A stretch of 64,000 bases of DNA from Stigmatella erecta (GTDB taxonomy: Bacteria > Myxococcota > Myxococcia > Myxococcales > Myxococcaceae). The notes under the pieces are model-generated. The model made no database searches, had not been told where the DNA came from, and worked only from the letters and a program-made list of their open reading frames with translations. The position numbers were made by a program, and so were the translations under genes. Shown piece by piece: positions 7,525 through 20,681 of this stretch. The stretch spans positions 124,001 through 188,000 of the forward strand of contig NZ_FOIJ01000013.1 in NCBI RefSeq assembly GCF_900111745.1, given 5' to 3'. The number at the start of each line of letters is the position of its first letter. Position 1 is the first letter of the stretch.

Positions 7525-8439
7525 ATGCTGACAGCCTTCCTGGCCCTTCTCCTCACGCAGACACCCCCGGCACAGCCTCGCCAGCAGGGCGTTCCCATCG
7601 GCAAGGGCACGCAGCTCGCCAAGGTGACCCTCACGGCGCCCACGGGCGGCTGGACGGTGGACCGGATGATGCTCGTGGAGGGCTCCCTCAGCGACACCTC
7701 CGTGGACCCGGTGGTGGTCTCCATCAACGGCGACCGCTACCTGATGCGCACCTACAACGGCCGTTTCAGCCGCAAGTTTCCCGCCGCCAGCGGCAAGAAC
7801 ATCGTCACGGTGATGGCGACGAACAAGGCGGGCACGGCGCGCGCCCAGGTGACGGCCTACGCGCAGATTCCCCCCGTGCCCATGAAGGTCATCCTCACGA
7901 GCGACACGGAAGGGGTGTACACGGACCTGCACCTCTACGAGCCCACCCAGGAGAGCCTCAAGGACGGGGTGCTGGAGGGGGCGAAGATGGCGCACGTGTA
8001 CTGGGCGGACACGTCGAGCCCCAGCGGCGGCACGTTCTTCCTCAACGAGCAGGGCGGCGACTTCGACCAGCCGGCCTACGGGCCCTACCTCTATGTCCAC
8101 CGGGCGCCGCCCAAGGGCGTGTACCTGGTGGCCACCAACTACTGGCCCAGCGGCGACAAGGCCCACACGGTGGCCACGCTGAACCTGTCGCTCTTCGAGG
8201 GCACGCCCGGCGAGGTGCGCCGCATGGTGCGCATTCCCCTGGCCACCCCGGGCACCACGCGCGTGCTCGCGTGGGTGAACATCCTCGGGGACAACCAGGC
8301 GGAGGTGTACGTGCCCTCGCAGGACCCGAAGCCCACGCACCCCTCCTGGCCCGGGAACCTGGAGGAGACCGCCAAGGAGATCAGCACCGGCGGCGAGGGC
8401 GGCGGCGACGAGGGCGGCGGGGAGTACGAGGGAGAGTAG
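7525..8439 (+). CDS. yfaP: YfaP-like DUF2135 exported protein
   Basis: A 304-residue protein with a short signal peptide (MLTAFLALLLTQT). Residues about 30-110 look like an Ig-like domain (LTAPTGGWTVDRMMLVEGSL...). Residues about 119-215 fit DUF2135: TDLHLYEP, then a GG-rich turn, YGPYLYVHRAPPKGVYLVATNYW, which is the conserved acidic and GYGPE/GxYxVxxNYW layout. The C-terminus is a Gly/Glu tail (GGEGGGDEGGGEYEGE). E. coli YfaP is the same family and is encoded with the alpha-2-macroglobulin YfaS. The function is unknown; the acidic motifs suggest metal or glycan binding. It is the first gene of a five-gene operon with gaps of 19 bp, overlaps of 4 bp (twice) and a gap of 4 bp. Confidence 0.8.
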   Translation: MLTAFLALLLTQTPPAQPRQQGVPIGKGTQLAKVTLTAPTGGWTVDRMMLVEGSLSDTSVDPVVVSINGDRYLMRTYNGRFSRKFPAASGKNIVTVMATNKAGTARAQVTAYAQIPPVPMKVILTSDTEGVYTDLHLYEPTQESLKDGVLEGAKMAHVYWADTSSPSGGTFFLNEQGGDFDQPAYGPYLYVHRAPPKGVYLVATNYWPSGDKAHTVATLNLSLFEGTPGEVRRMVRIPLATPGTTRVLAWVNILGDNQAEVYVPSQDPKPTHPSWPGNLEETAKEISTGGEGGGDEGGGEYEGE

Positions 8440-8458: not shown

Positions 8459-9076
8459 ATGCCCCTTCTGTCCCTCATGCTCGTGCTCGCGGGCGCCGTG
8501 CCGCAGGCCCCGTCCGCCCCCGGAGCGCCCGCCGTGGCCAGCCCGCGCGAGGCCCGGGATGTGCTCCTGCGCCGGGAGCTGGCCCAGGTGGCGCTCGCGC
8601 AGCTCCAGACGGTGGACCCCGCCTGGCACCCGGCGCAGCGCGACTGCGCGGGGCTGGTGCGCTTTGCCTACCGCGCCGCGCACCGGCGCTTCTTCCCCGA
8701 GCGGCTCGCGCGGCCCCTGTGGGCCGATGGCCGGGGCGCCCCCTCGGAGTTCGCGGACGCGGAGACGCTGCTGACGCGCAGCTTCGTGTCCCTGGGCCGC
8801 GAGGAGGCGGCGCTGGAGGCGGTGCGCACGGGCGATCTGCTCGCCTTCCGCCAGGAGCAGGACGCGGGCCCCGTCTTCCACCTCATGCTGGTGGTGCGCC
8901 CGGAGGACAAGGCGCACGCGCCCGCGCGCGTCGTCTATCACCCGGGCGAGCAGGGCGCCGCGGTGCGCACTGGCGTGCTGCGCACGCTCGCCACCGAGGC
9001 GCCCATCGAGTGGCGCCCCGTGCCCCAGAACACCGCCTTCCTCGGCTTCTTCCGCTTCAAGGAGTGGATGCCATGA
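8459..9076 (+). CDS. yfaT: YfaT-like DUF1175 protein with NlpC/P60-like active-site motifs
   Basis: A 205-residue exported protein (signal peptide about 1-18). It matches DUF1175 by length, by its place between yfaP- and yfaA-like genes, and by RDCAGLVRFAYR near the middle. The segment around Cys63 (DCAGLVRFAY) closely resembles the nucleophile motif of NlpC/P60 peptidoglycan peptidases (DCSGLVxYVY). GDLLAFRQE and then His141 (VFHLMLVVR) follow at the expected spacing for the catalytic His. This suggests a papain-like amidase or peptidase acting on peptidoglycan, although the family has no assigned activity that I know of. Its stop overlaps the next start (ATGA), indicating translational coupling. 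Confidence 0.75.
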   Translation: MPLLSLMLVLAGAVPQAPSAPGAPAVASPREARDVLLRRELAQVALAQLQTVDPAWHPAQRDCAGLVRFAYRAAHRRFFPERLARPLWADGRGAPSEFADAETLLTRSFVSLGREEAALEAVRTGDLLAFRQEQDAGPVFHLMLVVRPEDKAHAPARVVYHPGEQGAAVRTGVLRTLATEAPIEWRPVPQNTAFLGFFRFKEWMP

Positions 9077-10683
9077 CTGCTGCTTCTCCCCCGCCTCCCG
9101 GCGCGCCCCCCCCGCCGCCGCCGAAGCCGGGAATGCTCAAGTGGATCCTCATCGGCGTGGGCACCATCGTGGTGACGGCGCTGGTGGTGGGTGCCTTCAT
9201 CCTCGGCCGCCGGGGCGCGGACTCAGGCCAGGGAGCGCCCGTGGCGGCGCCCTCCAAGCCCTCGGGGCCCCCCAGCGCCGGGGCCACGGTGGAGGGCATG
9301 CCCGAGCCGCCCGCGCCCACGCCCCTGGAGGACATTCCGCTGCAGGGCCTGCCGGCCGTCTGGGTGGACGTGTACGCGCCGGCGCGGGTGCGCCAGGCGC
9401 TCGTGGGCAACGCCTGGCTCCAGGAGCAGATGAAGAAGCCGCTGGGCCAGGGCTTCGCCAGCTCCTGGGCCGCCTTCTTCGGCACCTCGGGCGAGGACCT
9501 GAAGGCCTCCTTCAAGGAGGGCGTGTTCGACGTGGTGGCGGGCCGGCTGCTGGATGTGCCCTTCCGCATGCAGTGGTTCGTGGGCCCCGAGGACGCCACG
9601 GCCCCCGCCTTCATCGTCCCCAAGGCCCCGGCGGGCGCCACGGCGGCCTTCGAGGCCATGGAGCAGGTGGCGCGCCGCGGTGGCTACACCGCGAAGGAGT
9701 GCCCGTCCGGGGCCGAGCCCTCCGTCTCCATGCCGGAAGGGGGCTTCGTGATTTCGCGCTGGCTCGTGGCCGAGCAGTCCCTGTACGCGGGCCGCGTGGG
9801 GGACCGGCTGGTGCTGGCGCGCCAGCCCGCCATGGTGCTGCGCGGCCTGTGCGCGGGGAAGCTGGCGCTGGAGGCGCCCGAGGGCGTGGACCTGGAGCTG
9901 GGCTTCCAGCACGAGCACCTGGGGCGCGAGCTGGCGCTGCTCTCGCACGTGCTGGGCATGAAGGAGGAGACGCGGCTGGGCTTCGCCGCCGAGGGCTCGC
10001 GGCTGGTGGCCCGGGGCATCGCCGGGAAGCTCGCGGACGAGGTGCGCCTGGACACGGCGCCGCTGTCCGACGAGCTGCTGAAGCTCGTGCCGGCGGAGAC
10101 GCCGGTGCTGCTGGCGCTCCAGCTCAAGCTGCCCGACACGCTGGATGCCGCGCGCATCCAGGCGTACTGGCGCGGAGACGACGAGGGCAAGGTGCTCACG
10201 CGCCAGGTGGCGCTGGTGTGGACCCCGCGCGGGGACGCGGCGCTGGAGCACGAGTTCGCCCTGCTCTGGGGCCGGCCGGACGACGCGCCCGCGCTGGAGC
10301 GCATCTTCAACGGCGGCAACAAGCTGTTCCACAGCACGCTGTGTGGCCACCGCGTGCTGTCCTCCTCGCTGGAGGTGCTCCAGCGGGTGCAGAACGCGTG
10401 CGAGGGCCAGAGCCCCAACCTGCTGAACGCCGCGGGGCCGGTGGTGGCGGGCCTGCGGGCGCCGGGCTCGGTGACGCTCGGGGTGAACACCGGGCAGCTG
10501 CTCGGGCAGCTCGCGGCGGATGGGTACTGGTCGGAGCAGCGGCTGGGCCGCAAGGCGCCGGTGCCGAAGTCGGCGCCGCCGGAGATTGAAGCCGCGCGGC
10601 GCGACCTCGAGACGCTGCCGTTCGTGGGATTGCGTGGCACGGTGAAGGGCGATTCGTTGGTTCCAGGAGGGTTCGGTTCATGA
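9073..10683 (+). CDS. yfaA: YfaA-like DUF2138 membrane-anchored protein
   Basis: A 536-residue protein. It begins with a short Pro-rich cytoplasmic segment (PPPPGAPPPPPPKPG), then one membrane helix (about 22-45, WILIGVGTIVVTALVVGAFILG), a Pro/Gly-rich linker, and a large periplasmic domain rich in VDVYAPARVRQALVGNAWLQ and LELGFQHEHLGRELALL patterns. Length (E. coli YfaA is about 560 residues), topology and operon position all agree with DUF2138. The molecular function is unknown. It overlaps both the gene before and the gene after by 4 bp. The topology suggests it is the inner-membrane anchor of the alpha-2-macroglobulin complex; that is inference. Confidence 0.75.
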   Translation: MTAASPPPPGAPPPPPPKPGMLKWILIGVGTIVVTALVVGAFILGRRGADSGQGAPVAAPSKPSGPPSAGATVEGMPEPPAPTPLEDIPLQGLPAVWVDVYAPARVRQALVGNAWLQEQMKKPLGQGFASSWAAFFGTSGEDLKASFKEGVFDVVAGRLLDVPFRMQWFVGPEDATAPAFIVPKAPAGATAAFEAMEQVARRGGYTAKECPSGAEPSVSMPEGGFVISRWLVAEQSLYAGRVGDRLVLARQPAMVLRGLCAGKLALEAPEGVDLELGFQHEHLGRELALLSHVLGMKEETRLGFAAEGSRLVARGIAGKLADEVRLDTAPLSDELLKLVPAETPVLLALQLKLPDTLDAARIQAYWRGDDEGKVLTRQVALVWTPRGDAALEHEFALLWGRPDDAPALERIFNGGNKLFHSTLCGHRVLSSSLEVLQRVQNACEGQSPNLLNAAGPVVAGLRAPGSVTLGVNTGQLLGQLAADGYWSEQRLGRKAPVPKSAPPEIEAARRDLETLPFVGLRGTVKGDSLVPGGFGS

Positions 10684-13600
10684 AGAACTCCATGCGTTGG
10701 GGGCTGCTGGCGGCCATGGCGGTGGCGGGGGTGGCGGCGGCCAAGCCGCTCTACATCACCGTGCCGCGCGCCTACGGTCCGCAGGAGACGGTGGCGGTGG
10801 ACGTGGCGTTCTCCAGCAAGGGCCCGGTGGAGCTGCGGGTGCTCAAGCCGGACAACCTGGAGGCCTTCATCCGCGCGCAGGGCGACCTGCGCCGGGCGTA
10901 CCAGGCCCCGCCGGTGCTGAAGAACCCGGGGCGGGCGCTCAGCCGCGGCCTCAACGCCGTGCGGCTGCCCAGCACCTACCTGCTCTACGCCTTCAGCCCC
11001 GAGTTCCGGGACACCGTCGCCCCGGCGCTGCCGCAGCGTGACGCCGACGACGTGGCGCCCTCGGTCAACCAGATGGTGGAGGGCCCGGACAAGCTCGTGG
11101 GCGTGCCGGCCGGCTTCACCGTGACGCGCAGCCAGTGGCTCAACCTGGACCTGGGCGGCACGGGCTCGGACTTCAGCGTGCCCGGCTTCTCCGCGTGGTC
11201 CGGCGGCGGCTTCCAGGAGCGCCGCGTCATGCTGGCGCCGCTGCCCGCGGGCACCTACATCCTCCAGCTCGTCCAGGGGAAGGTGGAGGGCCAGGTGGTG
11301 CTCGTCGTCACGGACCTGACCGTGCAGCTCAAGCAGACCGATGGGCAGGTGCTGGTGCGCGTGGCGGGCCGGGACCAGAAGCCGCGCGCGGGGGCGCAGG
11401 TGCAGCTCTACCTGCCCGCGGGCCCGGGCGTCTCGGGCAAGACGGACGAGCGGGGCGAGGTGACGCTCGCGGCCAGCGAGCCGCGGCTGCTCGCCACCGC
11501 CACGGTGGGTGGGGACACGGCGCTGGTGGACACGGACTTCTACTCGGCGCTCGCGGTGGCCCCCGACGTCTTCATCTACAGCGACCGGCCCATCTACAAG
11601 CCGGGCGACACGGTGAAGTTCCGGGGGCTGGTGCGCCAGCCGGACACGTTCCTCGCGCGGCTGCTCACCCCCAAGAAGAAGGAGGTGGCGGTGAAGCTCG
11701 TCTCGGCCGAGGGCCGCGAGGTGGCCACGCGCACGGCGGTGGACGAGTTCGGCAGCTTCCACGGCCAGGTGCAGGTGCCGGACGACCTGGGCACGGGCGT
11801 GCTGCGGGTGACGGCCTCGGTGGAGGAGCACACGCACCAGGGCGAGGCGCGCGTGCAGGACTACGTGAAGCCGACCTTCTACCTGGAGGTGACGCCGGAG
11901 CAGGAGAACATCGTCCCGGGCACGGCGCTGAAGGCCACGGTGAAGGCGCGCCGGTACGCGGGCGGGGTGCCCGCCGGCGCGCGCTACGAGGTGTTCCTCT
12001 ACCGCACGCTGGTGGATGCGCCCGCGTGGGTGGATGACGCGGGCAAGGGCGGTCAGGGCAGCGCGGTGACTTACGGCACCGCCTCCAGCACCGAGGGCAA
12101 GCTGAGCGTGCCCGAGCGCCTGTACTCCTCGGTGGCCGCGCGCGAGCAGGGCGAGGACCCCTGGTCGACCGCCGCCGAGTTCGACGCGGAGGGTGAGGCC
12201 GCCATCGAGATCCAGGTGCCCGCGCTGGCGGCGGGCGAGGAGCGGCTGCCCTACAAGTACTCGCTCACGGTGCGGGCGCGGGACGACCAGGCGACGTTCG
12301 CCAACGCCACGGTGCCCTTCTTCCTCTCCGAGGTGGAGGTGCTGGGCGTGGCGAGCTTCTCCTCCAAGCTGGAGAAGAAGGGGGCGGAGGCGCAGCTGTC
12401 CATCCGCGCCACCACGCTGTCGGGCAAGCCCTACGGGGCCACCTCCGGCGAGGTGGAGTTCGTGCTGCGCAAGGCCGACGGGAGCGAGAAGAGCCTGGGC
12501 AAGCGCCCCTTCACCACGGGGGCGGACGGCGTGCACCGGGAGAAGGTCCCCACCTCGGACGTGGGCACGGTGCTGGCGCGGGTGACGGTGCAGGACAAGC
12601 GCGGCAAGACGTGGTCGGGCGAGGAGTCCCTGCTCGTCATCGGCGGCAGCGACGAGCCGGTGACGAAGGTGGCGAACCTGACGCTGGCCTCGCTGTCCGG
12701 GGCCCTGTCTCCGGGGGACTCGGCGCAGCTCGTGGGCCTGCTGCCGGATGGGTGGGGCCCGGGCGGCCGCAACGAGGGCTCCGTGTGGATTACCTACACG
12801 GGGGCGGGGCTGTACGGCACGCAGCTCGTGAGCCAGAAGGGACTCACGCTGCAGCACGCCTTCCCGGTGGAGAAGCGCTTTGGCAGCGCGGTGTACGTCT
12901 CGGTGGCGTACCCGTCGGACGCGGGCCGCTGGGAGGAGCGCACGGTGGCCTACCGCATCGTCCCGGCGGAGCGGACGCTCACGGTGAAGCTGGAGCCCCG
13001 GCGCGCCGAGGCCGCCCCGCTCACCGAGCAGGTCATCGACGTGCGCGTCACGGACCACGAGGGCCAGGGCCTCGCCACGCAGCTCTCGGTGGGCGTGGTG
13101 GACAAGGCGGTGTACGCGATCCAGAACGAGTTCCGCCCCAAGGTGCTGGACTTCTTCTACCCGCCGGCGCGCAACAACGTGACGAACTTCTACTCCGCGG
13201 AGTTCCAGGGCTACGGCTACGGCGAGGCGCTGGCGCGGAAGATGGCGGGGCTGCCGGATCACGCCTTCGCCTCCATCAAGCCGCCGAGCCGCAAGGCGAA
13301 GGACCAGGAGCGCGACACGGCCTTCTGGCAGCCCAACGTGGTGACGGACCGGGAGGGGCGCGCCACGGTGCGCTTCCGGCTGCCCTCCAACCAGACGCTC
13401 TGGGTGGTGACGGCGGTGGCGGCGGATACCTCGGGCCGCTTCGGCGAGGGCACCGCGGAGTTCGCCACGCGCGGCGGGCTGAACCTGTACGCGGCGCTGC
13501 CGCAGTTCCTGCGCGCCGGTGACGAGGCGCTCGCCTCGGTGCGCCTGTCCTCGGGCCAGGAGGCGCAGGGGCCCCAGGCGCTGAAGGTGCGGCTGGCCTC

Positions 13601-15392
13601 CGGCGGGGTGCTCCAGGCGGACGCGCAGGAGCAGCAGGTGGAGCTGCAGAAGGGCGGCGAGCAGGTGCTTCCCCTGCCGCTCAAGGCGGGCAGCGCGGGC
13701 ACGGCCGAGCTGGCGGTGGACGTGACGGGGGGCAAGGAGCCCCTGAGGGACCGGCGCGTGCTGACGGTGCGGCCCGCGGTGCTGGAGGAGCCGGTGAAGG
13801 TGTCCGCGTGGGCGGGCGGCGCGCTGGCGCTGCCGGCGGCGGGCTCGGCCAAGCTGGCGGGCGTGGAGCTGGTGCTCCAGCCCTCGGTGGTGGACGCGGC
13901 GCTCACCAACGTGCGCGAGCTGCTCACCTACCCGTATGGCTGCCTGGAGCAGCTCGTCTCGACGACGGTGCCCAACGTGGCCCTGTTCCAGACGCTCCAG
14001 AAGGTGAACGCGCTGGAGAAGCTGGATCCGGAGAGCCAGTCGCTGCTGGCCGAGGCGCGCAGCCGCTCGGTGCAGGGCACCGCGCGCATCCTCGCGCTGG
14101 CGGTGAAGGGCGGCGGCTTCACCTGGTTCGCGGGCTACAGCGAGCCGAACCTGCCCATGACGCTCATCGCCCTGGATGGGCTCGCCTACGCGGTGGAGGC
14201 GGGGCTGGTGGACGGCAATGACACGCGGCTGACGGAGTCGGCGCGCTGGCTGGAGGCGCAGGAGAACCTGCCCTTCGAGCACGACGCGACGCGGGCCTAC
14301 GTGCTGGCGCGGCTGTACGGCCCCCGGCAGGCGGCGCGGGTGCGCGCGCTGGTGGAGCGGGCGACGGCGGGGGACCTGTACCCGCTGGCGCTCGCGGTGC
14401 TGGCGGCGGAGAAGGCGGAGGTGATGAAGGAGCCGGCGCTCAAGGCCCGCATCGACACGCTGGTGTCGGCGAGCAACGAGGGCTTCGTGCGGCTGGCGAG
14501 CCTGAACCCGGCCGCCGACGCCGAGTCCGAGGCGTTCTTCCGCTACCCGCTGCGCCGGGTGGGCCTCACGGCGCTCTTGGCCCACGCGGCCTCCTTCGGG
14601 GCGCTGGACGTGGACAAGGCGCGCCGGCGGCTGCTGGAGCACCTGAGCCAGCCGGACCTCTCCACCTTCGACCGGAGCACGGCGCTCCTGCACTCGCTGT
14701 GGCTCATCGAGCGCGACGCGAAGAACTTCAAGAAGCTCACGCCCCCGGAGGTGAAGGGCACGCAGAAGCCGGTGAGCTTCGTGCCCCGGGGCATGGGGCT
14801 GGTGGCCACGCTGGAGCCGGGCACGCGCTCGGTCGAGGTGGGCACCTTCGACGGGGTGGCCACGCTGCGCGCCACCTCCCAGACGCCGCTGCCGGACGTG
14901 CAGCCGCTCCAGGAGGGCATGAGCATCGAGCGCCGGTACTGGGTGCTGCGCCCCGAGGGCAAGGTGCCGCTGGCCGCCGGGGAGCCGGTGGCCCAGGGCG
15001 AGGACGTGTTCGTGGAGCTGCTCATCGATGCGCGCGGGGACAACAAGGCCCGCTCGGCGTACTACGTGGTGGAGGACGCGGTGCCGGCCGGCTTCGTCCC
15101 GCTCATCGAGGACAAGGAGTTCCGCGGGGCGCCGCACGCGCTGGGCCTGGCGCCCGAGGCGCTCAAGCGGCGGGTGCTGACGCCGGAGCGGGCGACGTTC
15201 TTCTTCGAGGAGCCGGCGCGGTGGAGCGACAGCCCGCGCACGGTGGGTTACGTGATGCGGGCCCAGTTCGCGGGCTCCTTCACCGCGCCGCCGGCCACCA
15301 TCGAGGACATGTACGCCGCGAGCATTCGCGGCCGCACGAAGTCGGATGTGCTGGCGGTGAAGCCCTCGCAGCAGGCGCGCGGGGACTGGTAG
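10680..15392 (+). CDS. yfaS: Bacterial alpha-2-macroglobulin, YfaS type, with thioester motif
   Basis: A 1570-residue exported protein with a signal peptide (MKNSMRWGLLAAMAVAGVAAA) and the long series of macroglobulin (MG) domains. YSDRPIYKPGDTVKFRGLVR (about 300-320) marks the MG3/MG4 region, a bait-like segment follows the middle, and QPNVVTDREGRATVRFRLPSNQTLW precedes the thioester-containing helical domain. GCLEQ at residues 1087-1091 provides Cys1088 and Gln1091 for the internal thioester. Bacterial A2Ms trap proteases that attack the periplasm. It is encoded with yfaP-, yfaT-, yfaA- and yfaQ-like genes, not with pbpC, so it belongs to the YfaS branch. As I recall, E. coli YfaS lacks the thioester, which makes the intact CLEQ here notable. 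There is no lipobox, so anchoring must come from a partner. Confidence 0.92.
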   Translation: MKNSMRWGLLAAMAVAGVAAAKPLYITVPRAYGPQETVAVDVAFSSKGPVELRVLKPDNLEAFIRAQGDLRRAYQAPPVLKNPGRALSRGLNAVRLPSTYLLYAFSPEFRDTVAPALPQRDADDVAPSVNQMVEGPDKLVGVPAGFTVTRSQWLNLDLGGTGSDFSVPGFSAWSGGGFQERRVMLAPLPAGTYILQLVQGKVEGQVVLVVTDLTVQLKQTDGQVLVRVAGRDQKPRAGAQVQLYLPAGPGVSGKTDERGEVTLAASEPRLLATATVGGDTALVDTDFYSALAVAPDVFIYSDRPIYKPGDTVKFRGLVRQPDTFLARLLTPKKKEVAVKLVSAEGREVATRTAVDEFGSFHGQVQVPDDLGTGVLRVTASVEEHTHQGEARVQDYVKPTFYLEVTPEQENIVPGTALKATVKARRYAGGVPAGARYEVFLYRTLVDAPAWVDDAGKGGQGSAVTYGTASSTEGKLSVPERLYSSVAAREQGEDPWSTAAEFDAEGEAAIEIQVPALAAGEERLPYKYSLTVRARDDQATFANATVPFFLSEVEVLGVASFSSKLEKKGAEAQLSIRATTLSGKPYGATSGEVEFVLRKADGSEKSLGKRPFTTGADGVHREKVPTSDVGTVLARVTVQDKRGKTWSGEESLLVIGGSDEPVTKVANLTLASLSGALSPGDSAQLVGLLPDGWGPGGRNEGSVWITYTGAGLYGTQLVSQKGLTLQHAFPVEKRFGSAVYVSVAYPSDAGRWEERTVAYRIVPAERTLTVKLEPRRAEAAPLTEQVIDVRVTDHEGQGLATQLSVGVVDKAVYAIQNEFRPKVLDFFYPPARNNVTNFYSAEFQGYGYGEALARKMAGLPDHAFASIKPPSRKAKDQERDTAFWQPNVVTDREGRATVRFRLPSNQTLWVVTAVAADTSGRFGEGTAEFATRGGLNLYAALPQFLRAGDEALASVRLSSGQEAQGPQALKVRLASGGVLQADAQEQQVELQKGGEQVLPLPLKAGSAGTAELAVDVTGGKEPLRDRRVLTVRPAVLEEPVKVSAWAGGALALPAAGSAKLAGVELVLQPSVVDAALTNVRELLTYPYGCLEQLVSTTVPNVALFQTLQKVNALEKLDPESQSLLAEARSRSVQGTARILALAVKGGGFTWFAGYSEPNLPMTLIALDGLAYAVEAGLVDGNDTRLTESARWLEAQENLPFEHDATRAYVLARLYGPRQAARVRALVERATAGDLYPLALAVLAAEKAEVMKEPALKARIDTLVSASNEGFVRLASLNPAADAESEAFFRYPLRRVGLTALLAHAASFGALDVDKARRRLLEHLSQPDLSTFDRSTALLHSLWLIERDAKNFKKLTPPEVKGTQKPVSFVPRGMGLVATLEPGTRSVEVGTFDGVATLRATSQTPLPDVQPLQEGMSIERRYWVLRPEGKVPLAAGEPVAQGEDVFVELLIDARGDNKARSAYYVVEDAVPAGFVPLIEDKEFRGAPHALGLAPEALKRRVLTPERATFFFEEPARWSDSPRTVGYVMRAQFAGSFTAPPATIEDMYAASIRGRTKSDVLAVKPSQQARGDW

Positions 15393-15396
15393 CACC

Positions 15397-17616
15397 ATGG
15401 GGTGGGCCGCCGTCACGGTTGCCCTCTTGGCGGCCACCCCGCGCTTTCTCACCCAGGGAGACGTGACGCCCGAGGACGCGCTGCGCGCCGAGGCGGAAGC
15501 GGCCTGGAAGGCGCTGGAGGCGCGGTATGTGGCCGAGGCGGGGGGCCGTCCCCCGCGGGAGCCGCCGCCCATCCGCCTCCAGCGCGGCGCGGCCCTGCCG
15601 CCGGAGCGCAACGCGCAGGGCACCCCGGGCCTCGTGGAGCTGCGGCAGAACACGCCGGGCGTGCTGGAGGCGCGGCTGCGCGTGGCGCTGCGGCACGAGC
15701 TGGCGCACCAGCTCCTGTGGTGGGCCTGCCCCGCGGCCTCCGAGGACCGGCTCTTCCACGAGGCCTTCGCGGTGGGGACGAGCGGCGAGCTGGCCGAGTG
15801 GCGCGAGGGGCCCTACCAATCCCTGACCCGGGCCGCCGCGGCGCTGGCGCAAGCGCCCCAGGTGGACACGCCCTCGGCGCGCAAGGCCCTGGCGCGCCTG
15901 CTCGGCGAGAGCCAGGGCTTTCCCCGGGCGCTCTCCACCCGGCTGCGCCAGTGCCAGGATGGGGCGCGCTGGGCCCTGCCCCTGTCCATCGACGAGCTCG
16001 CGGGCGTGGAGGCGCGGGCCGCGGAGCCGGCCACGGTGGTGGTGAGCCGGCACTCCGGTGAAGTGCTCCTCGCGGAGGGAGACGTCCGGCGCGCGCTGCC
16101 CTACGGCTCCACGCTCAAGCCCTTCCTGCTCGCCGGGAGCGCGGGGCCGCCCCCGCTGCTGCCGCCGCGCTCCGGCGTGCAGGAGTGGGCGTGCGGCAGC
16201 GCCCTGCCCGCCCGGGTCGACGGGCGCACGGCGCTGCTGCGCTCCTGCAACGGCTACTTCCTGGACTGGGCGGCGAAGGGGGGCGCGGCCGTGGACTTCG
16301 GGCCCTGGGGCGCGGTGCTCCAGGCGGTGGGGCTGACGGGCACGCCCACGGACATGGCGGATGCCATCGGCTTGCGCTCGACGTTGGCGCTGTCGCCGTG
16401 GGGGCTGGCCCAGGCCTACCGGCTGCTCGCCGAGGCCCGCCCCGAGCTGCTCGACACCCTGAAGGACAACGCGGCGCGCGGCACGCTCTCGGAGCTGCCC
16501 GCCTCGGCGGCCTACGCGGGCATCGCCACCAAGACGGGCACGGTGAGGGACGCGGCCAGCCGCCCCCAGTACGGCTGGATTGTCGCGGTGGACGCGGACA
16601 CCGTGGCGGTGGTGATGCGGCCGGGCCAGATGCCCCGGAGCTTCGCGGACGAGGTGCCGCGGGTGCTCGCCCAGGCGCGGCGGAAGCGCGGCCTGGAGGC
16701 GGCCCAGGTGCAGGTGCTGGGGCTGGTGCCGGTGCACGAGGTGGAGGCCGGGTGCCCGGGCGCGGGGTTCTCGGTGGCGGCGGGCGTTCCCCACGCCCTT
16801 CCTCCCGGGTTCTCGCGGCTGGACGGCCGGGTGGCGGGAGGGCCCGCGGTGTGCCTGGGCAGCCCCTGGCGGGTGCGGGCGCCCGGTTTACCTCCGGAGG
16901 GCCGCGACTACGCGGGCATCTTCACCGGCTCCCCGCCGCCGCCCTACCGTCCGCCGCCGGGCGTGCCCACCACCGAGCGGGAGCGCCGGGCGCGCCGGGG
17001 CTCGGACTTCGTCTTCCGCACCACGCGCCTCCAGTACACGGCGGGGGTGGTGGCGGCGGAGGATGCGTCGCTCCAGGGCGAGCCCCGGGTGGCGCTCGCG
17101 CGGGTGGCGGCGCACAACGAGCGGCACGCGCAGGGCCGGCACGGGGGGAGGCCCCTCTGTGACACCACGCACTGCCAGGCGTTCCTCGGCACGGTGCGGA
17201 TCAAACCCGAGGAGGAGCAGGCCCTGGGCCTGCCCGCGCTGCGCTGGAAGCAGTGGCTGCCCTTCTCGCAGGGAGGACAGGAGCCCTGGACGGAGCGCCG
17301 GGCCCGCGTGCGGGTGGAGGCGCTGCTCGGCCCCCGGCTGGCCTCGCTGCGCTTCAAGGACGGGCGGGTGCTCTTCGTCCAGGCCACCCAGGAGGCCGGG
17401 GAGACCTTCGACACGGCCGAGTCGAGGCCGTGCGAGGTGCTCCGCTCGGCGTTGAAGCTCCCGTCCTGCCCTCACAGGGCCGCGTTCGACGGCGCGGAGG
17501 TGGTCTTCGAGGGCAAGGGGCGGGGCCACGGCGAGGGGCTGGACGTGGAGGAGGCCAAGGCAAGCCCCCTCCGCAGCGGCGAGCTCCTGGAGCGCGCCTA
17601 CCGCACGCTGCCGTGA
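15397..17616 (+). CDS. yfaQ: YfaQ-like DUF2300 protein: HExxH, penicillin-binding and SpoIID-like modules
   Basis: A 739-residue exported protein, starting 4 bp after yfaS. Three modules can be seen. First, residues about 90-130 have HELAH (100-104) and a downstream Glu122 in FHEAFAVG, a gluzincin-like zinc-peptidase pattern. Second, residues about 230-420 carry S238TLK241, S283CN285 and K379TGT382, the SxxK/SxN/KTG triad of penicillin-binding transpeptidases in the right order and with plausible spacing. Third, residues about 500-735 look like SpoIID: YTAGVVAAED with the likely catalytic Glu555, CDTTHCQAF (588-596) and a terminal GRGHGEGL. SpoIID is a peptidoglycan lytic transglycosylase. 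E. coli YfaQ is assigned only to DUF2300. The protein may process peptidoglycan next to the trapped protease complex. Confidence 0.8.
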   Translation: MGWAAVTVALLAATPRFLTQGDVTPEDALRAEAEAAWKALEARYVAEAGGRPPREPPPIRLQRGAALPPERNAQGTPGLVELRQNTPGVLEARLRVALRHELAHQLLWWACPAASEDRLFHEAFAVGTSGELAEWREGPYQSLTRAAAALAQAPQVDTPSARKALARLLGESQGFPRALSTRLRQCQDGARWALPLSIDELAGVEARAAEPATVVVSRHSGEVLLAEGDVRRALPYGSTLKPFLLAGSAGPPPLLPPRSGVQEWACGSALPARVDGRTALLRSCNGYFLDWAAKGGAAVDFGPWGAVLQAVGLTGTPTDMADAIGLRSTLALSPWGLAQAYRLLAEARPELLDTLKDNAARGTLSELPASAAYAGIATKTGTVRDAASRPQYGWIVAVDADTVAVVMRPGQMPRSFADEVPRVLAQARRKRGLEAAQVQVLGLVPVHEVEAGCPGAGFSVAAGVPHALPPGFSRLDGRVAGGPAVCLGSPWRVRAPGLPPEGRDYAGIFTGSPPPPYRPPPGVPTTERERRARRGSDFVFRTTRLQYTAGVVAAEDASLQGEPRVALARVAAHNERHAQGRHGGRPLCDTTHCQAFLGTVRIKPEEEQALGLPALRWKQWLPFSQGGQEPWTERRARVRVEALLGPRLASLRFKDGRVLFVQATQEAGETFDTAESRPCEVLRSALKLPSCPHRAAFDGAEVVFEGKGRGHGEGLDVEEAKASPLRSGELLERAYRTLP

Positions 17617-17623
17617 GCGGGTC

Positions 17624-20425
17624 TCAAGGGCAGCTGAGCGGGTTGGCGGGGTTGCTGCCTGCGGCCCGCTCGTCCCCGTCGAGGTGCCCGTCGAGGTCCC
17701 GGTCGAGGCCGATGCGCTGGCCCGCGCCCAGAGGCACGCAGGTATAGGTCAGCGCCCCGGAGCCGGTGGCGACGAGCTGCCGGAGCACCAGGTCGGAGAC
17801 GGGCAGGTGGGCCTGCTTGTCGCGCTTGAACAGGCCGCTGCCCACGGAGAGGTAGCCCACGTCGGCCTGGGAGATGCGCCCCTTGGCCACGAGCTCACAC
17901 TCGCCCGCGTTGGCCCGCGCGATGAGCAGGTCCACGCGGGGGCCCGCCACGGCCGAGTTGGAGGCCGTGAGCGTCACCTGCTGGCCGACGATGGGGGCCA
18001 GGTTGCTGTCGAAGGCCAGCAGGAACTCGCCCATGTCCAGCTTGGCCTGGTGGCCCGCGGGCGTGTTGGGGATGCCCACCGAGTTGAAGGTGGGGTGGAA
18101 GTCGAAGCCGCTGTTGAAGCGCAGCATGGTGTCGAGCGAGCCATCGCTGTTGAAGCCGAAGCCGCGCACCTGGTCGCCGAGGAACGGATCCGGGGGCAGG
18201 AAGCCGAAGGGGTAGTTCACCCCGAACATGCCGACCTTCTGGTACAGGTTCCGCAGGTGGGGCGTCTTGGGGAAGATGGCCGTGCCGACGAACGCCGAGC
18301 GGCCGTCCGTGCCGAAGAAGCCCTTGAAGGGGCCCGCGCTGGGGTTGGCGTTGGGATCGATGCGGTGGCAGGACTCGCACGAGCCGTGGAAGAAGCTCTG
18401 GGTGTTGACGAAGAAGTCCTTGCCCGCCTGCTGCCGCGCCGTGAGGGAGTTGTCCAGCTTCCGGACCGGGTTGGGCGGGTAGACGATCTGCAGGATGAAG
18501 GCGGAGAACTGCTGCATCTCCGCGGCGGAGAGCTGCGCGTTGCGGCCGAGCAGATCCATGAAGGCCGGGTTGAACTTCGCGAACGCCGCGGCCTCGTTGT
18601 AGGCGCCGCTGTCCGGCTGGGCGCTCTCGGCGTCATTGCCGCCCGTGCGGTCCCCGCGCCAGTGCATGGGGCCGTGGTTGGCCATGCCGCGCAAGCTCTG
18701 GGTGGCCAGGGGGCCCTTCACCGGGTGGAAGTTCGGATCCTGGCCGAAGGTGGGGTCCGGTCCGAACTCGGGGGGCGCGGTGGCGATGGGGTTCAGGTTG
18801 TACGTGTAGGGGGCATCCGGGTTGCCCAGGTTCCAGTCCAGGCTGTCGAAGTCGCCGAAGATGTGACAGCTCGCGCAGGACGAGTCCCCGTGGCTGGAGC
18901 TCTTGCGCGCGTCATAGAGGAGCGGCCGGCCCGCCACCACGCTGGGGGGCTCGGGGTTGTACATTGGCAGGTGGGAGATCTCCTGCTTCGTGGTGGTGTT
19001 GATGACGGAGATGGCGTTGTCGAAGCGCGTCAGCACGTACATGCGCCCGCGCGCCTCATCCAGCACCAGGCCCGTGGGCCCGCCGCCGCTCACCGGAATC
19101 TGGTTCGCCGTGCTGGGCACGAAGGTGTCGGCCTCGAGCGCGGCGGTGGAATAGACGCCAATCTTCGAGGAGCCGAAGGCGGCCACGTACAGGGTGGCGC
19201 CGTCGGAGGTGACGGCCATGCCGAGCGGCTGCGCGAGGCTCTTGTCGTTCTCCGCGTTGGGCAGGGCGGCACAGCACGCGCCGTAGTTGATGTGCTTGTT
19301 GAGGTGCCGGGGCGCGACGCCCGAGGTGCCCAGCACGCTGATGCGGCTCTCGTGCAGGTGCCCGCGCAGGCTGGTGCCGGCGAGCGTGCCGGGGCCCTCG
19401 AAGCGCAGGTCGTTCCGGGCCTCGGTGTTGCTCACGTACACCTTACCGCTCACCGGGTTGACGGCCATGTTGAACAGGATGGTGCCCACGCCGGCGTAGA
19501 ACCCCGACGTTCCCCCGAGCTGCGCGGGCGGGGTGGCGGTGGCGTCGATGACGAACACGTCCTTGTCTGGCAGGGAGAACTTCACGTCGTTCGTCCAGGA
19601 GCGGCCCAGCGAGTCGAGCCAGTCCTGGCCGTTGAACTTCACCAGGACGCCGGTCTCCGGCGCGGCCATGCCCTGGAAGTTGACGTTGGGGCCCGGCACG
19701 CCGCCGGCCGCCTCGCCCCCGTTGGGCACCAGCGTCTCGTGAATGATGGTGGTGCGGTTGCCCGAGTGGAACGCGGCGGCATAGACGCGCGAGCCATCGG
19801 GCGTGACGGCCAGGGCGCGCGGGGTGTCGCTGAACAGGGTGAGGATGGTGAGCGGGGTGCCCCCCAGCGAGCTGCCCAGGGCGTTGGCATTGAAGACCCA
19901 GACGTCGGCGCGGCCAATGCCCGGCGTGGTGAACTGCGGATCATAGGGGACGTTCTGGCCCCGGTGGGCGGTGGTGATGAAGGCGCGGCCCTGGCTGGGC
20001 CCGGCGAAGACGATGTCGCGCGGCTCGTCGCCCACGAGCAGCGTCCGCACCACCGCGCCCCCCAGCCCCCCGGAGGCCACCTCCACCACGCTCACGCTGT
20101 CGGACAGGTGGTTGACGACCCAGACCTCGGTGTCACTGCGCGCCGCGACGGCAACGGGCTCCAGCCCCACAGGAATGGAGCCGAGCTGGGTGAGGCCACT
20201 GGCGGCTACCTTGAAGACTTCGAGCCGGTTGTCCGGGGTGTTGACGGCGAAGAGGTAGTTGCCGCTCGGTGCGAGGGCGAGGGGCCGGACCTGGCCACTC
20301 TCGAAGAGGGTGAACGATGCCGCGCTCGTGCGGGGGGCTGCATCCCCCACCAGGCTCACGAGCAAACACACGGCGAGGGCAATACATGACACATCACGGC
20401 AAGACGCCGCGCTCCTGGCTTTCAT
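17624..20425 (-). CDS. Exported beta-propeller / diheme cytochrome c fusion protein
   Basis: A 933-residue protein with a signal peptide (about 1-35). I chose the ATG at 20425 because GGAGG lies 5 bases before it. The N-terminal half is a seven-bladed YVTN/YncE-like propeller (repeats such as PLALAPSGNYLFAVNTPDNRL and GMAVTSDGATLYVAAFGSS). The C-terminal half has two CxxCH heme sites, CASCH and CESCH, in the arrangement of cytochrome c peroxidase/MauG-like diheme proteins, including GPLATQSLRGMANHGPMHWRGDR. It ends in a DRDLDGHLDGDERAAGSNP calcium-binding type segment. It probably carries out periplasmic electron transfer or peroxidation, or senses redox state; the substrate is unknown. It is a separate transcription unit convergent with the yfa-type operon. 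Confidence 0.85.
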   Translation of the reverse strand: MKARSAASCRDVSCIALAVCLLVSLVGDAAPRTSAASFTLFESGQVRPLALAPSGNYLFAVNTPDNRLEVFKVAASGLTQLGSIPVGLEPVAVAARSDTEVWVVNHLSDSVSVVEVASGGLGGAVVRTLLVGDEPRDIVFAGPSQGRAFITTAHRGQNVPYDPQFTTPGIGRADVWVFNANALGSSLGGTPLTILTLFSDTPRALAVTPDGSRVYAAAFHSGNRTTIIHETLVPNGGEAAGGVPGPNVNFQGMAAPETGVLVKFNGQDWLDSLGRSWTNDVKFSLPDKDVFVIDATATPPAQLGGTSGFYAGVGTILFNMAVNPVSGKVYVSNTEARNDLRFEGPGTLAGTSLRGHLHESRISVLGTSGVAPRHLNKHINYGACCAALPNAENDKSLAQPLGMAVTSDGATLYVAAFGSSKIGVYSTAALEADTFVPSTANQIPVSGGGPTGLVLDEARGRMYVLTRFDNAISVINTTTKQEISHLPMYNPEPPSVVAGRPLLYDARKSSSHGDSSCASCHIFGDFDSLDWNLGNPDAPYTYNLNPIATAPPEFGPDPTFGQDPNFHPVKGPLATQSLRGMANHGPMHWRGDRTGGNDAESAQPDSGAYNEAAAFAKFNPAFMDLLGRNAQLSAAEMQQFSAFILQIVYPPNPVRKLDNSLTARQQAGKDFFVNTQSFFHGSCESCHRIDPNANPSAGPFKGFFGTDGRSAFVGTAIFPKTPHLRNLYQKVGMFGVNYPFGFLPPDPFLGDQVRGFGFNSDGSLDTMLRFNSGFDFHPTFNSVGIPNTPAGHQAKLDMGEFLLAFDSNLAPIVGQQVTLTASNSAVAGPRVDLLIARANAGECELVAKGRISQADVGYLSVGSGLFKRDKQAHLPVSDLVLRQLVATGSGALTYTCVPLGAGQRIGLDRDLDGHLDGDERAAGSNPANPLSCP

Positions 20426-20681
20426 ACGGCCTCCACGCCCGGGCACGGCCCCCCCTTCACGGCCACAGCGAAGAAAAAAGAAATTTGAGAGGGCTGTAGA
20501 TATCCTGCGCTACTGTAACATGTTTTGTAAAGGGCCTCGTTTGATCCGAGAGCACGCTGGGCCGTCCGCCCACGCTTCAAGTGGAATCCGCCTCACGGCC
20601 GGGCCGGTTGGAGCCCATGTGAGCCTTTGAGGGCCGCGGTGAAACCTGTTGCATCCGCCGCTTTAATCCGCAAGCCGCACG

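Follow-up and report, generated by a model that had tools for sequence, protein, structure and literature searches.

A YfaQ-like protein with gluzincin-like, penicillin-binding-like and SpoIID-like modules in an alpha-2-macroglobulin operon of Stigmatella erecta

Introduction

Bacterial alpha-2-macroglobulins (A2Ms) have been divided by the company that they keep: those with a thioester pair with PBP1c, and those without it are found in a six-gene operon (PMC5764988). E. coli YfaQ is already published as a transpeptidase-like plus SpoIID-like protein (PMC12282094; mSystems 2025), and deletion of yfaQ makes the cells wide and has a profile that groups it with wall genes (PMC12282094). The statement in a sequence-only reading of the locus studied here, that DUF2300 has no assigned activity, has to be qualified by this description of YfaQ.

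In P. aeruginosa, it is already published that magD, which encodes the A2M in the mag operon, gives protection from VgrG3 and Tae1, two T6SS effectors that attack peptidoglycan, by a mechanism that was unknown there (PMC12663445). Deletion of magE alters both the processing and the amount of MagD; the authors ascribed the change to a signal-peptide or chaperone effect, taking the additional MagD form to have kept its signal peptide, and reported MagE to be cytoplasmic and possibly a chaperone (PMC5764988). The third relevant system is the SpoIID protein of C. difficile, where E101, C140 and H145 are required for activity on purified peptidoglycan in vitro. The enzyme needs denuded glycan, and the SpoIIP amidase must act beforehand (PMC6221140).

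Here we describe an A2M operon in a window of 64,000 nucleotides from Stigmatella erecta, and in particular the 739-residue protein encoded directly after the A2M gene.

Results

The operon and its A2M

The operon lies on the forward strand and starts with a YfaP/DUF2135 protein (7525..8439; PF09906 3.7e-6, and hhalign 6.5e-11 to E. coli YfaP). It is followed by YfaT/DUF1175 (8459..9076; PF06672 1.9e-28), which is NlpC/P60-like with conserved DCAGL and FHLM, by a gene in the YfaA position with one N-terminal transmembrane segment (9073..10683), and by a YfaS-type A2M of 1570 residues (10680..15392; Pfam MG2, A2M, A2M_BRD, TED and bMG10). The YfaQ-like protein, a fusion of HExxH, PBP and SpoIID modules, comes last (15397..17616). 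DUF2138 was tried as an identity for the gene in the YfaA position and rejected, as no similarity was detectable.

The order DUF2135, DUF1175, membrane-anchored YfaA-position protein, A2M and YfaQ was seen in all 31 loci that were long enough, including one from a Bdellovibrionales. A multi-module YfaQ was found in 80 Myxococcota genomes, all of which had DUF1175; it was absent from the two that had only a stand-alone SpoIID relative. These two relatives (L070:7896-8783 and L071:7890-8882) belong to Myxococcaceae MAGs and have no A2M operon nearby. DCAGL and FHLM are retained in nearly every DUF1175 member, and the members from Deinococcota match NlpC/P60 over the cut-off. In one survey DUF1175 was called inactive and peptidoglycan-binding (PMC10318531).

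The A2M of the window has the thioester motif YPYGCLEQ (Cys1088; 13929..13952, +). An intact thioester was found in 37 loci, again including the Bdellovibrionales, and it is also present in the separate-gene operons described below and in Deinococcota; it is absent from the A2M of Citrobacter. At one locus with an A2M (L064) the search for the motif gave none. The thioester A2M of myxobacteria in this operon type contradicts the published split, and the lack of a thioester thus seems to belong to the proteobacterial operons and not to mark the operon type. Of the features of type I bacterial A2Ms, the window A2M has the CxEQ thioester and lacks the adjacent PBP1c gene. The same genome also carries a classical pair of thioester A2M and PBP1c on another contig (C7), and a third A2M with a CFEQ motif in a frame of 1381 aa (G000:C3; L130:9499-13641).

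Two further observations concern the surroundings. A convergent gene on the reverse strand (17624-20446) ends 8 bases past the yfaQ stop and encodes a lactonase-type beta-propeller that weakly resembles MauG-type di-haem peroxidases. A record titled Comamonas sp. KCTC 72670 (L033) holds a clearly myxobacterial five-gene operon, and is likely mislabelled or contaminated.

The 739-residue protein

All the motifs claimed in the sequence-only reading were found in the open reading frame: HELAH at 100-104, E122, S238TLK, S283CN, K379TGT, E555 and C588DTTHCQ594. In composition-preserving shuffles of the protein, an HExxH occurred by chance in 1.3% and the ordered SxxK/SxN/KTG set in 0.02%, and C[DN]xxHCQ in none of 20,000. 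The conservation check that had been proposed was also borne out. In a 32-sequence family alignment (28-32 relatives, with identity down to 28%), H100, E101, H104, E122, S238, K241, S283, N285, K379, G381, E555, H582, C588, H592 and C593 were 100% conserved where the region was present, and dN/dS against close relatives was 0.08-0.33 in every part of the protein. Among 59 near genomes, 22 contained a relative. Further relatives came from across Myxococcota and from named genomes, a Bacteriovoracaceae (L069) and a Bdellovibrionales (L072) among them.

With the window protein alone, a search of Pfam and NCBIfam gave a sub-threshold SpoIID match only, the protein being below the Pfam cut-offs for both PF00905 and PF08486, and phmmer with the single sequence gave no relevant match in the PDB. 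These weak direct scores were rescued by family profiles and by the separate-gene homologues. The AlphaFold2 model of the whole protein, made with the family alignment as input, had a pLDDT of 89.9 and a pTM of 0.83. Residues 1-15 (15397..15441, +) are a putative export signal, a short hydrophobic N-terminus with an n-region lacking Lys and Arg; the pLDDT was <50 for residues 1-11 within it. There are eight conserved cysteines outside the zinc site, which fit an oxidising compartment. Judged from the hydrophobic N-terminus and these cysteines, the protein is probably exported.

Some relatives deviate from the common form. In Corallococcus and a related MAG (L038, L040 and L048) the PBP module has an Ala/Ser-rich insertion of ~30-55 residues, which follows the SxxK helix and precedes the SxN loop. 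In one genome the C-terminal half is partly duplicated, with two apparently decayed pieces of it lying ~7 kb downstream of the full-length gene (G034:C1:4686974-4687674; L024 and L026). In two others the gene is split over two frames (L063, G009) or the match has one in-frame TGA (L015, G014), in both cases due to a sequencing error or a pseudogene.

The three modules

The N-terminal module, residues 18-204 (15448..16008, +), is a gluzincin-like domain. Modelled alone (pLDDT 91.6, pTM 0.90), its top Foldseek and VIA matches were gluzincins of the M1, M9, M61 and M4 types; the statistics are weak (Foldseek E 0.07, VIA Z 9.7), and the listed rows are overwhelmingly clan MA zincins. HELAH (15694..15708, +) is inside helix 92-110, and the putative third zinc ligand E122 (15760..15762, +) is on the next helix, 118-129. 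HExxH and the downstream Glu are invariant in all 28 sequences. The module has the HExxH helix, the downstream Glu helix and three preceding strands in common with the clan MA gluzincins (M1, M61 and Peptidase_MA-type), and its spacing, HExxH-x17-E, is close to that of M1 (x18). Unlike M1 enzymes it is small, has no accessory domains and reaches no Pfam family. The similarity to gluzincins is at the level of the clan. For M48, which the sequence-only reading had named for comparison, there was no profile support: none of the 32 family members matched M48 in Pfam, and only weak SprT/M78 matches appeared.

The middle module, residues 205-434 (16009..16698, +), has the fold of the penicillin-binding proteins, as had been suggested, and is a predicted PBP-fold serine acyltransferase. 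Residues 206-434 could be superposed on class B PBPs with VIA Z about 20, rmsd about 3 and about 219 aligned residues (20.4, 3.0 and 219 for H. pylori PBP2), and the best Foldseek matches were PBPs, with 9.8e-8 for PBP1b. SxxK (S238-K241; 16108..16119, +), SxN (S283-N285; 16243..16251, +) and KTGT (K379-T382; 16531..16542, +) are in order and invariant, as in serine acyltransferases of this fold. In the AlphaFold2 model they are placed as in a PBP: S238 is at the start of a helix, K379 belongs to a strand, and S283 is part of a loop between helices. Profile alignments to solved PBPs paired SCN with SCN and KTGT with KTGT, with weak scores. When the genome's own PBPs were compared with the module all profile scores were near noise, and a derivation from its PBP1c is not claimed.

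The C-terminal module, residues 538-739 (17008..17613, +), is a SpoIID-type domain, predicted to be a lytic transglycosylase. It matched SpoIID crystal structures in hmmsearch on the PDB (4rwr 5.1e-6, 5i1t 1.1e-5), and 4rwr is also listed by Foldseek (8.5e-6). The alignment to 5i1t pairs E555 (17059..17061, +) with the catalytic Glu, and H582, C588, H592 and C593 with the zinc quartet, and it includes the GHG motif at 710-712 (17524..17532, +), which is conserved at the C-terminal end of SpoIID; all of these are invariant. H582 (17140..17142, +) is the equivalent of the C. difficile zinc ligand H134, and C588, H592 and C593 in CDTTHCQ (17158..17178, +) are the equivalents of C140, H145 and C146. 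PF08486 was matched by 27 of the 32 family members (best 1.6e-5). The catalytic Glu and the GHG are common with the SpoIID proteins of both C. difficile and B. anthracis, and the H/C/H/C quartet is of the C. difficile type. The module is one residue shorter than SpoIID between the middle zinc ligands and, unlike these two SpoIID proteins, is not linked to sporulation and is fused to PBP and peptidase modules. The sequence-only reading had proposed a SpoIID-like region here, and the profile matches, zinc quartet included, agree with it.

Split, fused and reordered versions

A second set of Myxococcota A2M operons was reached through DUF1175 searches. Three of them (L139, L140 and L142) have, in this order, DUF1175, A2M, DUF2135 and a Ser/Thr-kinase-like gene, followed by adjacent genes with one module each. 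The first encodes a PBP transpeptidase (PF00905 4e-32, 3.6e-42 and 9.5e-48, respectively), the gene beside it a SpoIID protein (PF08486 1.5e-17 in L140 and 4.4e-16 in L142), and the third a small HExxH protein in L139 and L140; the contig of L142 ends before that place. A possible NIF3-like gene was seen by eye in L140, also between DUF2135 and the PBP, SpoIID and HExxH genes. In three other operons (L136-L138) PBP and SpoIID are fused and the HExxH gene is separate (PF00905 3.8e-24 and PF08486 1.9e-23 in L136). On Deinococcota plasmids the A2M gene is followed only by a gene for a secreted HExxH protein, with DUF1175 upstream in three of five cases.

In profile-profile comparisons the modules of the window protein matched their separate-gene homologues with 5e-8 (PBP), 4e-12 (SpoIID) and 5.8e-7 (HExxH). 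Against three Deinococcota proteins alone the N-terminus gave a modest hhalign p of 0.0022, with a score of 26.9 as compared to at best 19.2 in 60 column shuffles; it was the addition of the myxobacterial separate-gene proteins to the Deinococcota set that made the HExxH link firm. YfaQ of E. coli and Citrobacter is colinear with the separate genes, PBP, SpoIID and HExxH, and matched them with 2.8e-5, 1.3e-5 and 0.009. These comparisons imply that the modules form one protein both here (HExxH-PBP-SpoIID) and in enterobacteria (PBP-SpoIID-HExxH). Archangium-type genomes have a half-split version and other genomes a completely split one, and in Deinococcota HExxH is all that is left. On sequence grounds, the separate-gene operons are the decisive evidence for the three modules predicted in the window protein.

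Comparison with E. coli YfaQ

The DUF2300 label of the sequence-only reading could not be kept, as PF10062 was matched neither by the window protein (E up to 1) nor in any of 195 Myxococcota genomes. We use the name YfaQ-like on the grounds of operon position and profile similarity, and not of the PF10062 model: the gene is directly after the A2M gene in a DUF1175/DUF2135 operon, and direct hhalign to E. coli YfaQ gave p 7.5e-6 for the PBP part but no more than 0.004 for the SpoIID part and 0.03 for the HExxH part, the similarity being firmer by way of the separate genes. Pfam DUF2300 has two matches in E. coli YfaQ (L028:6149-7798), one within the PBP-like part (84-205) and one over the SpoIID tail and HExxH (412-532). 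The two regions look unrelated, and the model may join non-homologous segments.

The two proteins have in common a PBP-like module followed by a SpoIID-like one, an HExxH segment, and the location directly downstream of an A2M gene in an operon with DUF1175 and DUF2135. They differ in that HExxH is C-terminal in E. coli (520-524) and N-terminal in the window protein, and in that E. coli YfaQ has lost the PBP triad and the zinc quartet while the window protein keeps both. The triad is broken in Citrobacter YfaQ as well (SCG and KTW in the two species), which means that there are branches in which catalysis cannot be essential. In K-12 the A2M gene next to yfaQ is a pseudogene.

Discussion

Computation established the folds, the motifs and their invariance, the linkage in an operon and the existence of versions with separate genes. 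It is probable that the 739-residue protein is an exported three-module envelope enzyme and the peptidoglycan arm of the A2M operon, and the enzymatic activities, export, repair role and gluzincin substrate that we infer for it would be connected as follows. The thioester A2M (YfaS) would trap invading proteases. The SpoIID domain, stabilised by zinc and working by lytic transglycosylation, would cut glycan strands that are damaged or stripped of peptides, the PBP domain would trim or re-link stem peptides as a serine DD-acyltransferase, and the NlpC/P60-like YfaT would bind or cut the stems. The gluzincin domain would have a protein substrate, most economically the A2M itself, which it would process or activate, or else it would clear damaged envelope proteins. 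Counting against this reading, C. difficile SpoIID needs denuded glycan while the operon has no recognised amidase gene, and DUF1175 was called inactive in a survey (PMC10318531). The broken triad of the enterobacterial YfaQ, the sub-threshold Pfam scores of the window protein and the reported cytoplasmic location of MagE (PMC5764988) weigh on the same side.

Like the A2M-PBP1c pair of type I, the operon links a thioester A2M to a PBP-fold enzyme. PBP1c, unlike the window protein, belongs to the class A synthases and has a glycosyltransferase domain, and the PBP domain here is instead joined to a lytic transglycosylase-type and a peptidase-type domain. The idea that the protein could provide the counterpart of this pair in the YfaS branch was put forward in the sequence-only reading, and it is strengthened by the bona fide PBP transpeptidase and SpoIID genes that other operons have downstream of the A2M gene.

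The mag operon is likewise a multi-gene A2M operon, where processing of the A2M is affected by the gene that follows it (PMC5764988) and the A2M protects against peptidoglycan-targeting effectors (PMC12663445); MagD has no thioester while the window A2M does, and MagE is compared by its published description only. It is conceivable by analogy that a peptidase domain in the magE product explains the MagD processing defect, which would be an alternative to the published reading and is meant as a lead only. The YfaQ-like protein could be mainly an A2M maturation factor, the gluzincin cleaving or activating YfaS and the wall domains only positioning it at the peptidoglycan. The Deinococcota operons, which retain only the A2M and the secreted HExxH gene, point in the same direction as the altered processing and amount of MagD (PMC5764988). 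We nevertheless find this rather unlikely as the main role, since it explains neither why the catalytic residues of the PBP and SpoIID modules are so strictly conserved nor why separate PBP and SpoIID genes exist, and the authors took the extra MagD form as having an unprocessed signal peptide (PMC5764988).

The loss of SxN and KTG residues in E. coli and Citrobacter YfaQ, which keep the domain, suggests another role for the wall modules: PBP and SpoIID domains could be scaffolds without catalytic activity, which bind peptidoglycan and serve to localise or sense damage to the wall, with only the gluzincin or the A2M active. The description of DUF1175 as inactive and peptidoglycan-binding (PMC10318531) would suit this. 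For the protein studied here it is unlikely, because the catalytic residues of all three modules are invariant in Myxococcota and Bdellovibrionota down to 28% identity, which a scaffold would not need, and the low dN/dS extends over every part of the sequence. OXA-type class D beta-lactamases were among the best Foldseek matches of the PBP-fold domain, which raises the question of whether it is a class D-like beta-lactamase or beta-lactam sensor and no wall enzyme. This is very improbable: VIA ranked class B PBPs first, the SxN motif resembles that of PBPs, the genes homologous to the domain encode PF00905 transpeptidases, and neither the SpoIID fusion nor the A2M linkage suggests resistance. 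That the motifs arose by chance in a GC-rich frame, as the weak direct Pfam scores could be taken to mean, is refuted by the shuffles, the invariance, the confident fold matches and the separate-gene homologues.

More widely, A2M operons of this type could tentatively be seen as a general envelope-defence cassette. It would consist of a protease trap and a secreted gluzincin, the latter being the A2M's own processing or activating protease, with a PBP/SpoIID pair for peptidoglycan editing added where the envelope needs one, and with the modules fused, split and reordered in at least four ways.

In openly licensed papers we did not find the complete myxobacterial catalytic set as compared to the degenerate one of E. 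coli, nor the peptidase module of YfaQ and its permutation, the separate-gene versions, or a thioester A2M in this operon type. That the modules occur fused, split and in different orders is genomic evidence, of an independent kind, for a joint function of the three activities. The residue-level assignment of PBP, SpoIID and gluzincin modules bears on why A2M operons carry several uncharacterised genes (PMC5764988, PMC12663445), and on how a gene of such an operon protects from toxins that cut peptidoglycan (PMC12663445). The host of the window operon is a predatory soil bacterium, and its A2M resembles an animal immune factor. Our findings point to a widespread A2M operon that would tend the cell wall as well as trap proteases.
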